Below, one piece after another: positions 3,091 to 28,388 of a DNA stretch of 64,000 nucleotides. Position numbers and translations under genes: made by a program. This DNA is from an uncultured Clostridia bacterium. Lineage in GTDB: Bacteria > Bacillota > Clostridia > Lachnospirales > Lachnospiraceae. Below the pieces are notes generated by a model, which saw only the letters and a list, made by a program, of their open reading frames with translations, did not search any database and was not told the origin of the DNA. The DNA lies in the NCBI GenBank assembly GCA_946403295.1, contig CAMIZL010000006.1, positions 1-64,000 of the forward strand. Reading direction: 5' to 3'. How positions within the stretch are numbered: position 1 is the first letter of the stretch; each line of letters opens with the position of its first letter.

Positions 3091-3956
3091 TATGTACTTT
3101 GACCGCTTCCCTCAAGGAGCCTTTTTGAAAGAACTCTCACCGCTTCTTCCATCGTATATATGCCTGTGTCCTTTATGATCCCCGCATCCTCGAGATCTTT
3201 CATCAAAAGACTTATCTGGGGCACCGAAAGGCCCATTTCCTCAAGCTCACGCCTGTGGGCGAACACTTCCCCGACAGGCCCGTCCATGGCCAGCTCACCG
3301 TCGTTCATCACCATGATTCTGTCGACATATTCCGCGACATCTTCCATACTGTGTGAAACAAGGATAACGGTTATGTTTTCTTCCCGCCTTATCCCGGCGA
3401 TCATATCAAGAATGTCTCTTCTTCCGACGGGGTCGAGTCCGGCTGCCGGCTCATCGAGCACGAGCACCTTCGGTTTCATCGCCAGAACGCCCGCTATGGC
3501 CACTCTTCGCTTCTGTCCGCCCGAAAGGTCGAACGGAGATACATCGAGCAGAGAATCGTCGATTCCGACGCTTCTGAGGGCCTCGTATGTCCTTACCTCG
3601 GCCTGAAGACCGGGGATACCCAGATTGTTCGGTCCGAATGCGACGTCTTTTCCTACCGTCGCCTCAAAAAGCTGGTGCTCGGGGTATTGGAACACTATCC
3701 CGACATTTTGCCTGAGCTTCTTTCTGTCGTATTCCTTATCGGAAATGTCTTTGCCATCGTAATATATATTTCCGCCCGTACATTTGAGCAGGCCGTTCAT
3801 ATGCTGGATGAGCGTGGACTTTCCCGAACCCGTATGTCCTATAATCCCTACGAATTCGCCGTCACGGATATGAAAAGACACGTTTTTTAACGCCATTTTT
3901 TCAAATGACGTTCCTTTTCCGTACAGATGATCAACCTTGTCAAACGTAATGGACAT
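3075..3956 (-). CDS. ecfA2: Energy-coupling factor ATPase EcfA2
   Basis: Walker A GHTGSGKST, LSGGQKRR, Walker B VLVLDEPAAGLD. Confidence 0.92.
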   Translation of the reverse strand: MSITFDKVDHLYGKGTSFEKMALKNVSFHIRDGEFVGIIGHTGSGKSTLIQHMNGLLKCTGGNIYYDGKDISDKEYDRKKLRQNVGIVFQYPEHQLFEATVGKDVAFGPNNLGIPGLQAEVRTYEALRSVGIDDSLLDVSPFDLSGGQKRRVAIAGVLAMKPKVLVLDEPAAGLDPVGRRDILDMIAGIRREENITVILVSHSMEDVAEYVDRIMVMNDGELAMDGPVGEVFAHRRELEEMGLSVPQISLLMKDLEDAGIIKDTGIYTMEEAVRVLSKRLLEGSGQSTYNTTP

Positions 3957-22489: not shown

Positions 22490-23665
22490 TCAATTTTGTT
22501 TGTAATCGGCCGTACCTTTTTTGAGTCTTTGCATCGCTTCCCGGAGCATCGCTCCCGGGCAGGCAAGATTGATACGGATGAAAGTTTTGCCGTTGCCTCC
22601 GAACGGCTCACCGTAGCTGAACATTACTTTTGAGTCTTTCTTCAGATGATCGACAAAGGTCCGGGTATCGTCGGTCACGTCCCCGCAGTCCACCCACATC
22701 AGGTAGGAAGCGTCCGAACCGATCGGCCTCAGCGACTTTATTTCTTCCTTTATAAAGTCTTCTGCGAATTTACGGTTTGCCCATAAGTACTCTCTCAGCT
22801 CGTCGAGCCACTCTCCGCCTTCTTCCGAAAGCGCAGCCGCTGCGGCATCATATGCAAAGAAATTACCTTCTCCGACTTCGTCGGTATTTATGCCGCGCCA
22901 CATCTTATGGCGAAGATCCGCGTCGGGTACGATCACGGCCGCAGTCCGGATCCCCGCTATGTTAAACGACTTTGTGGGCGTTACGCACATAACGCTTATC
23001 TTTCTGTTAAGTTCCGATACCGATGCAAACGGGATATATTCTTTCCCGGGAGCCGTTATGTCACAATGGATCTCGTCCGACAGGACATGCACATTGTTAG
23101 CTGCGCAGAGCTCGCCGATCTTTATGAGCGTTTCTTTGTCCCAGATGTTTCCCGTGGGGTTTTGGGGATTACAAAGTAACATCAATGTCGTTTGAGGATC
23201 TCCCAGTTTTCTTTCGAGGTCGTCCCAGTCGATCGAAAACGATCCCGAATCACGGTCATAAACGAGCTTGTTCTCAAGGACCTGTCTTCCGTTGTTAATG
23301 ATCGAATTAAAGAAGACCGGATAAACAGGCGTCTGTATGAGGACGTTTTCGCCCGGTGTGGTGAGCTTCCGGACCGCAGAGGATATTGCCGGAACGATAC
23401 CCGTTACAAAAACAAGCCATCTGCCGTCGACCTCAAAGCCGTGACGTGTTTTCCACCAGTATACATAGGCATTTTTCCATGCTTCGGTCTCGTGGGTATA
23501 ACCATAGATCCCGTGAACGGCACGATCCATGACCGCCTTTTTTACTCCCGGAAACGTTTCAAAATCCATGTCCGCCACCCACATCGGGATCGCATCCCCG
23601 GCAAAGTCCCACTTCACACTGCCGGTGTCTTTTCGATTTATTGCGGTATCAAAATCATACTTCAT
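22490..23665 (-). CDS. PLP-dependent MalY/PatB-type aminotransferase (cystathionine beta-lyase family)
   Basis: VKWDFAGDAIPMWVADMDFETFP; TPTKSFNIAGIRTA (PLP Lys); SDEIHCDI. Confidence 0.9.
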   Translation of the reverse strand: MKYDFDTAINRKDTGSVKWDFAGDAIPMWVADMDFETFPGVKKAVMDRAVHGIYGYTHETEAWKNAYVYWWKTRHGFEVDGRWLVFVTGIVPAISSAVRKLTTPGENVLIQTPVYPVFFNSIINNGRQVLENKLVYDRDSGSFSIDWDDLERKLGDPQTTLMLLCNPQNPTGNIWDKETLIKIGELCAANNVHVLSDEIHCDITAPGKEYIPFASVSELNRKISVMCVTPTKSFNIAGIRTAAVIVPDADLRHKMWRGINTDEVGEGNFFAYDAAAAALSEEGGEWLDELREYLWANRKFAEDFIKEEIKSLRPIGSDASYLMWVDCGDVTDDTRTFVDHLKKDSKVMFSYGEPFGGNGKTFIRINLACPGAMLREAMQRLKKGTADYKQN

Positions 23666-23745
23666 ATATTTCTTGTCTCTGTCCTTTCTCATCTGTTTCT
23701 TGTCTCTGTTCTTTCTCATCTATTTCTTGTCTCTGTCCTTTCTTC
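23663..23745 (-). repeat. 27-bp tandem repeat (3 copies) containing SD plus ATG of the aminotransferase gene
   Basis: Minus strand: gaaaggacagagacaagaaatagATGagaaagaacagagacaagaaacagATGagaaaggacagagacaagaaatatATG. Confidence 0.9.
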
Positions 23746-23810: not shown

Positions 23811-25610
23811 TTACCCAATGTTTATGCTTGTCGCCCCGACGTCCACCTTGTCCTCTTCCATGATAAGCTCTCCGACCGAGCCGACCGTTATCTTTCCGGA
23901 CAAAGGATTCTTGATGCTGTCGACGTGACCGATTATCTCGGCATCGACCTGTGAATACTCGAATGCGAGCGTCGTATTGATGAGCCTGCAATTTCTCATC
24001 ACCAGATTCTTAATGAAGCAAAGTCCCTGAAGGCTCTCGATCGTGCAATTCTCAAATGTGACGTTCGCGCTGTTCCATCCGAGATATTCTCCGCATATGT
24101 ACGAGTTCCTGACAAGCACATTCTTACAGTTCCAAAAAGCGTCCTTTGTGAGAAGTCTTCCGTTTTCGATCGTGAGGTTTTCGCAGCCGTCAAAACCGTA
24201 ATTGCCGTCAAGCTCGAAATCGGTAAGCGTGAGATTCTTGCTGTTCATCGCAAAATAATCTCCCTTTGCCCTAACCTTCTCCATCACGATGTCTTTGCAT
24301 TCCCAGAATGTCTCAAGCGCATTATAAAATGTGACATTCTTCAATCTGATATGACTGCTTCTTCTGAAGTTCTTGGGCCCCGCAACGATGACCCGCTCCG
24401 CATCGAGGTCGTCCGTATACCAGATCCCGGCTCTCGCCGTGTCCTCAAGGACGCAGTCCCTTAATACGATATTCTTTGAATACCAAAGCGGATATTTCCA
24501 TCTGAACGACGACCGCTCAATGTCTATATTGCAGCTGTGCTTTAAAGGCGATTCCCCGTCGCAGAAGATCGTCTCACTTATTTTCATGTCATGCGCCATA
24601 AAAAGCGCACGCTCGCCGGTGCAGATTTCGCGTAAGAGCTCCAGCTTTTCTGCTTTTTCATCATTCGTAACCGCTGTTTTCGCGTCATCCGTAACCGCTG
24701 TTTTTACGGCGCTACACATGGCTGCTTTCGCGTCGTTCGCAATCTCTGTTTTTACGGTATCACTCATGCTTTCTGTCTTTCCTTCTGTAGCTTTTCCGAT
24801 GGCATCGTTCATGCTTCCCACACGGTAACCCTTAAGGTCAAGCGAGACATACCCGAAGCCTATCTCCTTAAACCTGTCATAGATCCTGTTTCTGATCTCT
24901 TCGGAAGCGATCCTCACAACGCACGAGGGATCCACTTCTATCCGCGCGACATCCCCATGCAGTCTCACGCGTTCTTTCGTAAATCCGAGATCGATGAGGA
25001 ATTGCTCCGCAAGGTCTATCATCTTCAGTTTTTCCTTTGTGATCTCCTCGCCGTATGCAAATCTCGATGCGAGACACGCATATGAGGGCTTATCGAATGT
25101 CGCCAATCCGAGTTCTTTAGAAATCTCTCTTATCTCACTCTTTTTAAGACCGGCTTCACGCAGGGGGCTTTTTATTCCGAGTTCCGCGATCGCGCGAAGG
25201 CCCGGGCGGTAATCACCCTCGTCATCAACATTTGAGCCCTCCGCCACAACGGATATGCCGTTCTCTGCGGCGACCCCGATTATCCTTTCAAAGATGGCGC
25301 GCTTGCAATAATAGCAGCGATCGGGACTGTTAAAGCGGTATTCCCTGATCCCGAGCGGATCGGTATCGCAGAGAACAAGTCGAATGCCACGTTCTTCGCA
25401 GAATCTCTTCGCTTCCTTTAATTCTCTTTCCGGCACTCCCGCATCAGCGTTCATCACCGCGATCACGTTGCTGCCGAGCACTTTTTTTGCGACCGCGAGC
25501 AAGAGTGTGGAATCAACGCCGCCCGAGAAAGCGACGGCAAGACTTCCGTATTGTTTTATTATGCTTTCAAGTCTTTCGAATTTGTCGTTTGATTCACCGG
25601 TAAATCCCAT
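23811..25610 (-). CDS. Fusion: LarE-like ATP-dependent sulfur transferase domain plus C-terminal DUF3737-like beta-helix domain
   Basis: N-term SGGVDSTLLLAVA PP-loop, DRCYYCKRAIF, PSYACLASRFAYGE; C-term ERALFMAHDMKISETIF..SPLKHS...FRWKYPLWYS...ESLQGLCFIKNLVMRNC resembles DUF3737. Confidence 0.85.
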   Translation of the reverse strand: MGFTGESNDKFERLESIIKQYGSLAVAFSGGVDSTLLLAVAKKVLGSNVIAVMNADAGVPERELKEAKRFCEERGIRLVLCDTDPLGIREYRFNSPDRCYYCKRAIFERIIGVAAENGISVVAEGSNVDDEGDYRPGLRAIAELGIKSPLREAGLKKSEIREISKELGLATFDKPSYACLASRFAYGEEITKEKLKMIDLAEQFLIDLGFTKERVRLHGDVARIEVDPSCVVRIASEEIRNRIYDRFKEIGFGYVSLDLKGYRVGSMNDAIGKATEGKTESMSDTVKTEIANDAKAAMCSAVKTAVTDDAKTAVTNDEKAEKLELLREICTGERALFMAHDMKISETIFCDGESPLKHSCNIDIERSSFRWKYPLWYSKNIVLRDCVLEDTARAGIWYTDDLDAERVIVAGPKNFRRSSHIRLKNVTFYNALETFWECKDIVMEKVRAKGDYFAMNSKNLTLTDFELDGNYGFDGCENLTIENGRLLTKDAFWNCKNVLVRNSYICGEYLGWNSANVTFENCTIESLQGLCFIKNLVMRNCRLINTTLAFEYSQVDAEIIGHVDSIKNPLSGKITVGSVGELIMEEDKVDVGATSINIG

Positions 25611-25637: not shown

Positions 25638-28289
25638 TCAACAAAGTCTGAGCGTTGCGTAACAGAGCTGTTCGTTACCTATTCCGACGCTTATGCTGTT
25701 CCATTCGTCGATCGTTCCGTAATAGTTGATGACGGAAAGGTTGGAACATTGTGTAAACGCACTCATTCCGATGCTTCTGACGGAAGAATTGAGTGTCAAT
25801 GTCTTTAACGATCCGCACTGAACGAACGCGCTCATTCCGATCTCTCTTACGTTGCCCGTGATCCTGATCTCCGACAGGGAAGAACATTGGGCAAACGCGC
25901 TCATGCCGACAGACGGTATCCTGCCCGCAAACTCAACGCTCCTCAAAGACGAGCATTGCGCGAACGCGCTCATGTCTACGGTCGCATCGGCCTCGATCTT
26001 AAGACTTGTGATCCTCGAGTTTTGTGAGAATGCGCTCATGCCGATCTTTGTAACCGTATATCCGTCGATCACGGCGGGGATAACAAGCGAGGAAGACGTT
26101 CCCGTGTATCCCGTGATCGTTATGTTGTTTCCGTAGATGCTGTATGTAAATCCGGAGCTGCTGCCCTCGCCCGGTCCGGGATTCGGAACGGGTGCCGGGC
26201 TCTGTGTGGGCACGGGGTTCTGTGTGGGCACAGGGTTCTGTGTGGGCACGGGGTTCTGTGTGGGCACGGGGTTCTGTGTGGGCACGGGGTTCTGCGTGGG
26301 CACGGGGTTCTGCGTGGGCACGGGGTTCTGCGTGGGCACGGGGTTCTGCGTGGGTACGGGGTTCTGTGTGGGCACGGGGTTCTGTGTGGGGAACGGTGAC
26401 CACGTAGGGAACGGCGTCCATGTGGGATACGGTGTCCACGTGGGGTACGGTTCCATAGTGGGATACGGCGTCCATGTGGGATACGGCTCCGGACCCGCGG
26501 TGGGAGTCGGAATATATCCTGTGCCGGCGCTTACCGTAACGGGACAATATGCGCTTATGTTATTGGATGTCGTTGCATATATGCCGGCCGACCCTTGTGA
26601 AATAGCTGTAACAAAGCCGTTTGAGTCGACTATCACCACATCCGTATCGGTACTGCTCCAATAAACGTTAATATCCGTTGCGTTTGAAGGAGCGATGTAT
26701 GCGGAGAGTCGGGTGCTGTTTCCGACATTGAGGCTGAGCTCGCCGGGCTCGATGTTGATGCCCGTGGGATTTATTATGATGTCCGAAACGTTTGAAAGAT
26801 CCGGCATCCCGTAGCCGTAGTACTTATCCCATCCGACACTTCCGAGATCTCTCGCGCTCGATTTGATAAGGCTTTCGATCCGGGCGGGAGTGTGCTCGGG
26901 GTATTTGAGCATGAGCATCGCCGAAATTGCCGAAATATGAGGCGTAGCCATCGATGTTCCGTCGTATGTATCGTATTGTCCGTTAAGGACACAGCTCGTG
27001 ATACCGACTCCGGGAGCGACAACATCGAGCGAATTGCCGTAGTTTGAGAACTGCGCTTTTGAATCATAAACGTCCACAGCGCCGACAACAATCGGTTCTG
27101 TGAGATGGGCGGGGCATGCGTACAAAGTATCCGAGTTCTCGTTTCCGGCCGCAACGCACACCGTCACGCCTTTTTCGATCGCATATTTCACGCTTTCGTC
27201 TATATAGTTGCTGTGGCCTCCCCCGAGACTCAGATTGATGACCTTTGCTCCGTGATCGGCGGCATATCTGACGCCGAGGGAAACCGTCGTGTCCGTTCCG
27301 CTTCCGTCGGTTCCGAGAACCCTTACCGGCATGATATATACGTTAAGGCCCGGTGTGCAGTCGACGATCGTGCCCGCAACATGGGTTCCGTGAGAATTAT
27401 GATCCGTGGGATCGGAATCGTTGTCTATATAGTCATAGCCGGCAACGATCCTGCCGCTCAGGAAATCATGATAAGCGACGCCCGTGTCAACCACCGCAAC
27501 GGTGATTGATCCGTTTCCGACCGTTTTCGCATATGCATCGGCACCGAGTTTTGCGACACCCCACGAAAGGGATCCGTCCGTTTCGCCGTAAACAGGATCC
27601 TCAAAGATCGGATCAAAGACAGGGAGATCAAATTTTGCCCCGATCAACGCATCGGGTTCCGCCCACTCGACATCATCCATCGTACAGATCTGCGCAAATG
27701 CATCCTCCGCCTTTGCGGACGATTCGAACTGGATAACATATATATTGTCACTTCCCCTGATCGCGTCGACGATATCAAACCGGTCGAGAGAGAGCGCTCC
27801 CGTCCTGCTCTTTACGATCAGACGCGCGGTCACGAATCTGTCGTTTGCCGCGATACCCCTGCCGGCTTTGACCGGATTATTCTTTACGAGTCCCGCCACC
27901 TGTCCCGCAAACTTGTCAAATTCGTCATAGCTTCGAACGATCGTCTTTTCCTGTTTTGCGATGACCTTTATCTTGCATTTGTATGTATTTTTGCCGACCG
28001 CGGCCGTCACGTACGAAGTTCCGGCTTTCCTGCCCTTGATCTTTATCGAATTCTTTGTTGTTTTGATCGTTTTGAGGACCCCGGGTTTTGAGACTGACCA
28101 TTCCGCAGTCTTCTTTGAGGACAGTCCGCTGAGCCGGACGGTATACTTTTCTCCGACTTCGATCGTTATTTTTTTGGTATTGAGCTTAGCTTTCGCTTCT
28201 CCCGGAATATTATCAAACATCAAAAGAAGAAGCGCCATTATCATCATGACGGAGCCTGCCGTTTTTAATAACTTTTTCACGCTCTTCAT
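25638..28289 (-). CDS. Secreted S8 subtilase with Big2-like domains, Pro/Thr repeat linker and BspA-like LRR_5 tail
   Basis: Signal peptide; AVVDTG (D), HGTHVAGTI (H), DGTSMATPH (S); 10x NPVPTQ; repeated GMSAFxQC LRR units. Confidence 0.92.
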   Translation of the reverse strand: MKSVKKLLKTAGSVMMIMALLLLMFDNIPGEAKAKLNTKKITIEVGEKYTVRLSGLSSKKTAEWSVSKPGVLKTIKTTKNSIKIKGRKAGTSYVTAAVGKNTYKCKIKVIAKQEKTIVRSYDEFDKFAGQVAGLVKNNPVKAGRGIAANDRFVTARLIVKSRTGALSLDRFDIVDAIRGSDNIYVIQFESSAKAEDAFAQICTMDDVEWAEPDALIGAKFDLPVFDPIFEDPVYGETDGSLSWGVAKLGADAYAKTVGNGSITVAVVDTGVAYHDFLSGRIVAGYDYIDNDSDPTDHNSHGTHVAGTIVDCTPGLNVYIMPVRVLGTDGSGTDTTVSLGVRYAADHGAKVINLSLGGGHSNYIDESVKYAIEKGVTVCVAAGNENSDTLYACPAHLTEPIVVGAVDVYDSKAQFSNYGNSLDVVAPGVGITSCVLNGQYDTYDGTSMATPHISAISAMLMLKYPEHTPARIESLIKSSARDLGSVGWDKYYGYGMPDLSNVSDIIINPTGINIEPGELSLNVGNSTRLSAYIAPSNATDINVYWSSTDTDVVIVDSNGFVTAISQGSAGIYATTSNNISAYCPVTVSAGTGYIPTPTAGPEPYPTWTPYPTMEPYPTWTPYPTWTPFPTWSPFPTQNPVPTQNPVPTQNPVPTQNPVPTQNPVPTQNPVPTQNPVPTQNPVPTQNPVPTQNPVPTQSPAPVPNPGPGEGSSSGFTYSIYGNNITITGYTGTSSSLVIPAVIDGYTVTKIGMSAFSQNSRITSLKIEADATVDMSAFAQCSSLRSVEFAGRIPSVGMSAFAQCSSLSEIRITGNVREIGMSAFVQCGSLKTLTLNSSVRSIGMSAFTQCSNLSVINYYGTIDEWNSISVGIGNEQLCYATLRLC
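26205..26395. repeat. 18-bp tandem repeat, about 10 copies, encoding (NPVPTQ)n linker
   Basis: tgtgtgggcacggggttc units read directly. Confidence 0.95.
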
Positions 28290-28354
28290 AATCACACTCC
28301 TCCTTTTTTTCGATATATATCCTAATATTATACACACCAAAGGCCCGCAAGTAC

Positions 28355-28388
28355 AGAAAAATAACCCCGGGAGGGGCAATTCCCGGGG
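28355..28388 (-). terminator. Intrinsic terminator after the Bce-type permease gene
   Basis: CCCCGGGA/TCCCGGGG stem followed by TTATTTTTC on the minus strand. Confidence 0.8.

Follow-up and report, generated by a model that had tools for sequence, protein, structure and literature searches.

Thermotoga maritima LarE is a [4Fe-4S]-dependent sulfur insertase, and a one-residue shift of its third cysteine has been reported (PMC9283937). LarE enzymes of the CXXC-C type use sulfide bound to their own cluster, not the enzyme's own cysteine (PMC9283937; PMC11796402). The Lactiplantibacillus plantarum enzyme (5UDQ, 6B2O) is a single-cysteine sacrificial LarE. The genes larB, larE and larC reportedly occur without larA in about 15% of genomes (PMC11796402). 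Proteins of the DUF3737 family (PF12541) are otherwise encoded by stand-alone genes, which in the subfamily considered here usually adjoin malY. A literature search retrieved no paper on DUF3737, and a search for a C-S lyase with a beta-helix returned nothing on such a pair.

A LarE domain continuous with DUF3737

The window, that is, the whole 64,000-nucleotide stretch of clostridial DNA analysed here, encodes a LarE that carries a DUF3737 domain behind it, whereas T. maritima LarE is a stand-alone protein (PMC9283937). An earlier note, drawn up from the DNA alone, had described a single 599-aa reading frame in which LarE and DUF3737 are joined by a linker, and this is borne out (Table 1). 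The LarE domain is complete (TIGR00268, 316 bits against an equivalog cut-off of 150, profile positions 2-259 of 259), as is the DUF3737 domain (PF12541, 387 bits against a gathering cut-off of 23.9, profile positions 7-274 of 275), which retains the highly conserved core of its family. Modelling the whole fusion protein with AlphaFold2 (pTM 0.50) yielded two confident domains, with residues 268-320 at pLDDT values below 50. Given the disordered linker and this pTM, no fixed arrangement of the two domains is predicted. The repeats of the linker are degenerate, and a tandem-repeat search of it found nothing.

Table 1. Features of the larE-DUF3737 locus in the window.
Feature	Position	Strand	Description	Basis
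larE-DUF3737 fusion ORF	23811..25610	minus	599 aa, ATG start, without internal stop	
LarE domain	24807..25583	minus	residues 10-268; PP-loop SGGVDS and CXXC-C (C99/C102/C179)	TIGR00268, 316 bits
Linker	24651..24806	minus	residues 269-320; degenerate Ala/Lys/Thr/Asp repeats	AlphaFold2 pLDDT, codons
DUF3737 domain	23823..24626	minus	residues 329-596; right-handed beta-helix	PF12541, 387 bits; AlphaFold2
Shine-Dalgarno-like sequence	24777..24786	minus	AGAAGGAAAG, kept from the formerly separate DUF3737 gene	comparison with sister locus L033
ATG (Met282)	24765..24767	minus	kept from the formerly separate DUF3737 gene; ATGA context	aligned to L033:3514
malY/patB C-S lyase	22490..23719	minus	DUF3737 partner, full-length	TIGR04350, 377 bits (subfamily cut-off 340)
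Subtilase S8 + Big_2 + BspA-type LRR protein	25638..28379	minus	upstream of larE	Pfam, synteny

The motifs that had been read from the translation are all present in the fusion protein: SGGVDS (residues 29-34), RCYYCK (with C99 and C102) and ACLASR (with C179). The window LarE matches structures 5udq and 6b2o over residues 14-274 (phmmer E ~1e-51), and its third cysteine, C179, lies one residue off from L. plantarum C176. The PP-loop (SGGXDS), the CXXC-C motif and the shift of the third cysteine are shared with T. maritima LarE (PMC9283937), whereas the L. plantarum enzyme, although of the same family, has Trp/Ala at the CXXC positions in place of the three-cysteine motif. Judged by these residues, the window LarE is of the [4Fe-4S] CXXC-C type.

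The earlier note had recognised no larA, larB or larC in the window and proposed a look for them in the rest of the genome. Two of the three genes are indeed there: larB (L113:10130-11047) and larC (L113:8794-10164) lie side by side on contig C22. The LarC assignment is given by a Ni_insertion match of 442 bits; LarB, with an AIRC match of 68 bits, is identified by its position and its C-terminal AIRC-like domain. In contrast, the 99.2% complete genome contains no match to the LarA family PF09861. Family membership and pathway context indicate that the window LarE most likely makes the nickel-pincer nucleotide. It would probably still adenylate and thiolate pyridinium-3,5-dicarboxylate mononucleotide, its [4Fe-4S] cluster held by C99, C102 and C179, and would yield the nickel-pincer nucleotide together with the LarB and LarC encoded elsewhere. 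The genome thus appears to encode synthesis of this cofactor without a detectable LarA, which touches an open question of the field (PMC11796402).

Genome G031 encodes another in-frame LarE fusion, a 737-aa protein (L114:3323-5536, plus strand) composed of rhodanese, PP-loop (ATP_bind_3) and LarE domains. Its partners are a sulfur-handling and a PP-loop domain placed N-terminally, and it is more obviously functional than the window fusion; sulfur-delivery fusions of LarE therefore seem to exist.

The junction retains a former start site

The nearest relative, Lachnospiraceae Tb.RUG.141 (L033, contig G011:C199), has the same gene order of subtilase/LRR, larE, DUF3737 and malY. However, larE and DUF3737 are separate genes in this sister genome, with the larE TGA at 3392-3394 and the DUF3737 ATG at 3514 in a different frame. 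That the closest relative keeps the genes apart makes the fusion look like a local accident. The linker contains AAGGAAAGACAGAAA, which is identical to the sequence preceding the DUF3737 start in L033. Aligning the two junctions shows that AAGGAAAGACAGAAA and the ATG have been kept, and an equal score was reached by only one of 2000 shuffles. From the conserved Ile271 codon to the DUF3737 ATG there are 30 nt in the window versus 158 nt in L033, so that the window lacks about 128 nt relative to its sister, the larE stop codon among them. Past the retained ATG, it carries about 30 additional codons of degenerate repeat. In this comparison the linker still holds the former DUF3737 start, with Shine-Dalgarno sequence and ATG, and DUF3737 is probably made from its own start at Met282 within it.

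Dropping or adding a single base after Ile271 would give a LarE of 281 or 283 aa that stops at the DUF3737 start in an ATGA overlap. Since a one-base shift re-splits the reading frame in this manner, one small change would suffice to turn two coupled genes into the fusion. The same observation could be read as an error of assembly or base calling, in which one wrong base conceals a translationally coupled pair whose larE ends at the TGA of the ATGA over the DUF3737 start. The fusion is known from one genome of its species, and that genome is a draft assembly in 65 contigs. Nevertheless, it is not improbable by chance that both alternative frames stop near an ATGA, and the frame is otherwise continuous over its 599 codons, with no sign of other frameshifts in either domain. 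We therefore consider such an artefact unlikely.

The reading that we hold to be probable is that an accident joined a normal LarE to DUF3737, the first gene of a DUF3737-malY operon unrelated to it, with DUF3737 probably still translated from its own start. A larE gene and the two-gene operon would have come to lie head to tail, flanked by the surface-protease-like gene on one side and the S10 ribosomal operon on the other. In the window species, a small deletion or indel would then have eliminated the stop codon of larE and brought the DUF3737 frame in phase, and the outcome would be a read-through fusion whose linker is floppy. DUF3737 would probably still work with MalY, whether it stays attached to LarE or is made separately from the retained Shine-Dalgarno sequence and ATG, and we infer that LarE and DUF3737 are functionally uncoupled.

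Comparison with congeners is consistent with this origin by accidental fusion. The subtilase-larE order is common to the window genome, Tb.RUG.141 and the congener G015. In G015 this subtilase gene precedes larE, and the S10 ribosomal operon leader comes immediately after larE, with no DUF3737-malY pair in between; 167 nt of this leader are 96% identical to window positions 21639-21474. The congeners G012 and G023 have the pair at other locations, without larE. On the simplest reading, the DUF3737-malY pair would have entered between larE and the S10 operon in a lineage ancestral to both the window species and Tb.RUG.141, and the fusion would have occurred later in the window species. Between the window and its sister, dN is 0.15 and 0.08 for the two halves of the fusion with dS above 2, and by this comparison both halves as well as MalY are constrained. 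In the upstream subtilase, the motif PVPTQN is repeated about ten times between the Big_2 and LRR portions (window 26180-26410), forming a surface-type spacer.

LarE and DUF3737 in related genomes

A search of 195 relatives with the fusion protein as query found LarE and DUF3737 adjacent only in the window genome, where they are fused, and in its sister G011, where they are separate; recurrence in independent lineages, as expected of a conserved (Rosetta-stone) fusion, was not seen among them. Many of these relatives carry both halves, but elsewhere, among the matches listed, the two lie on different contigs or far apart. A conserved larE-DUF3737 operon is therefore rejected, and the larE-DUF3737-malY neighbourhood, whose conservation had been proposed as a check, is confined to two species among the 195 relatives. 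No second LarE-DUF3737 fusion was found among 80 loci collected from genomes. In line with this, DUF3737 and LarC are distributed independently: across 399 genomes of the phylum, with DUF3737 in 15 and LarC in 225, LarC is present in 10 of the 15 DUF3737-bearing genomes versus 215 of the 384 others (odds ratio 1.6, p 0.6).

These distributions bear on whether the fusion is functional. It could be imagined that sulfide released by MalY from cysteine conjugates is handed on by the tethered DUF3737 to the [4Fe-4S] cluster of LarE, a dedicated supply for the nickel-pincer nucleotide. The two fused domains and MalY are intact and constrained, CXXC-C enzymes draw on cluster-bound sulfide (PMC9283937; PMC11796402), and the rhodanese fusion of G031 offers a precedent. 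The gene order common to two species also leaves room for some benefit of the neighbourhood. However, DUF3737 does not co-occur with LarC, larE and DUF3737 lie apart in other genomes, and DUF3737-malY pairs are found without a nearby larE, which makes a functional fusion very improbable. We give still less credence to DUF3737 as a scaffold that docks MalY and onto which LarE has been recruited, for direct hand-over of sulfide to the [4Fe-4S] cluster in nickel-pincer nucleotide synthesis.

The earlier note had suggested a sulfur-handling or cofactor-modifying pathway involving DUF3737, and had itself counted a lack of co-occurrence with larE elsewhere against it. The part that stands is the pairing of DUF3737 with MalY; the link to LarE, seen in two genomes among 195 and without association with LarC, is unsupported by that measure. 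We judge the locus to be a species-level LarE-DUF3737 gene fusion, either real or one base from real, with no evidence of functional coupling. It can serve as an example of a misleading 'Rosetta stone' in one draft genome, the origin of which is revealed by the start codon that it still contains and by the sister genome with its unfused genes.

DUF3737 and its MalY partner

The gene downstream of the fusion had been taken for a MalY/PatB lyase, and it is a full-length member of this group, scoring 377 bits against the TIGR04350 cut-off of 340; it differs from other PatB/MalY C-S lyases by its pairing with DUF3737. After dereplication, 37 DUF3737 loci belonging to the subfamily of the window (at least 48% identity) had enough flanking sequence; in 30 of them a malY gene lies on the same strand at a distance of no more than 1 kb, downstream in 26 and upstream in 4. 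By gene order, MalY is thus the long-standing partner of DUF3737, as a conserved gene pair. None of 10 loci from another, divergent subfamily of DUF3737 (29-41% identity; L118, L136, L138-L145) has a MalY neighbour.

Predicting the DUF3737 domain alone confirmed the suspected beta-helix, a right-handed one with a mean pLDDT of 93. A Foldseek search with this model retrieved generic beta-helix proteins only, with TM values below 0.5 in the PDB, and a PDB search by sequence gave no match. As the matches are generic, the fold class is clear whereas the similarity is uninformative on function. Clustering of all neighbours placed LysR regulators near 7 and MATE transporters near 5 of 23 DUF3737 loci, which hints at a small metabolite module under regulation. 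Loci at which such genes recur beside DUF3737-malY are L034, L037, L038, L041, L043, L128 and L131, as well as L036 and L156. In our assessment, LarE is ordinary and DUF3737-MalY is an uncharacterised yet conserved module; its tie to C-S lyases of the PatB/MalY type, and occasionally to LysR and MATE genes, provides a testable handle on DUF3737. Together with the DUF362 lead described below, this pairing is a useful by-product that may be weightier than the fusion itself.

DUF362 proteins as candidate nickel-pincer enzymes

DUF362 (PF04015) and LarA belong to the same Pfam clan (PMC11770544). LarA sequences contain an H-x9-K-x15-H pattern, for example HSMAGFGGGRKAVCPGVSGYETIQHNH, the spacing of which corresponds to the catalytic His, the cofactor-linked Lys and the nickel-ligand His (Lys183 and His199 in I. 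pallida LarA; PMC12611868). Ferredoxin-containing DUF362 proteins of the same genus show HEMAGFGGAIKNIGMGCGSRAGKMHQH in register with LarA, with a profile comparison E-value of 1e-4. Across the 399 genomes, uncorrected for kinship, DUF362 is present in 212 of 225 LarC-positive versus 95 of 174 other genomes. Under the same proviso, it occurs in 74 of 87 genomes with LarC and no LarA, compared with 43 of 114 that lack both. Among the matches listed, all 25 genomes with a long-form DUF362 (about 815 nt, interpreted as the type with a ferredoxin insertion) are LarC-positive, versus 69 of 107 others. Since the H-K-H pattern is common to LarA and DUF362 and the latter co-occurs with LarC, DUF362 proteins are candidates for nickel-pincer enzymes where a genome has no LarA.

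As a full explanation of such genomes, DUF362 was rejected: 13 of the 87 genomes with LarC and no LarA lack it, and it tracks LarA too, so that a shared lifestyle may confound its association with LarC. The window genome has only two DUF362 genes, both of the short form. A weak DUF362-like match upstream of larE in G007 proved to cover no more than the ferredoxin portion of a protein of the dihydroorotate-dehydrogenase type. Near larE, DUF362 genes are found at L100, L115 and L152. DUF362 proteins bearing the LarA-like pattern are encoded at L113 (G000:C22, 16452-17672, minus strand), L148, L149, L150, L153, L115, L152 and L100.
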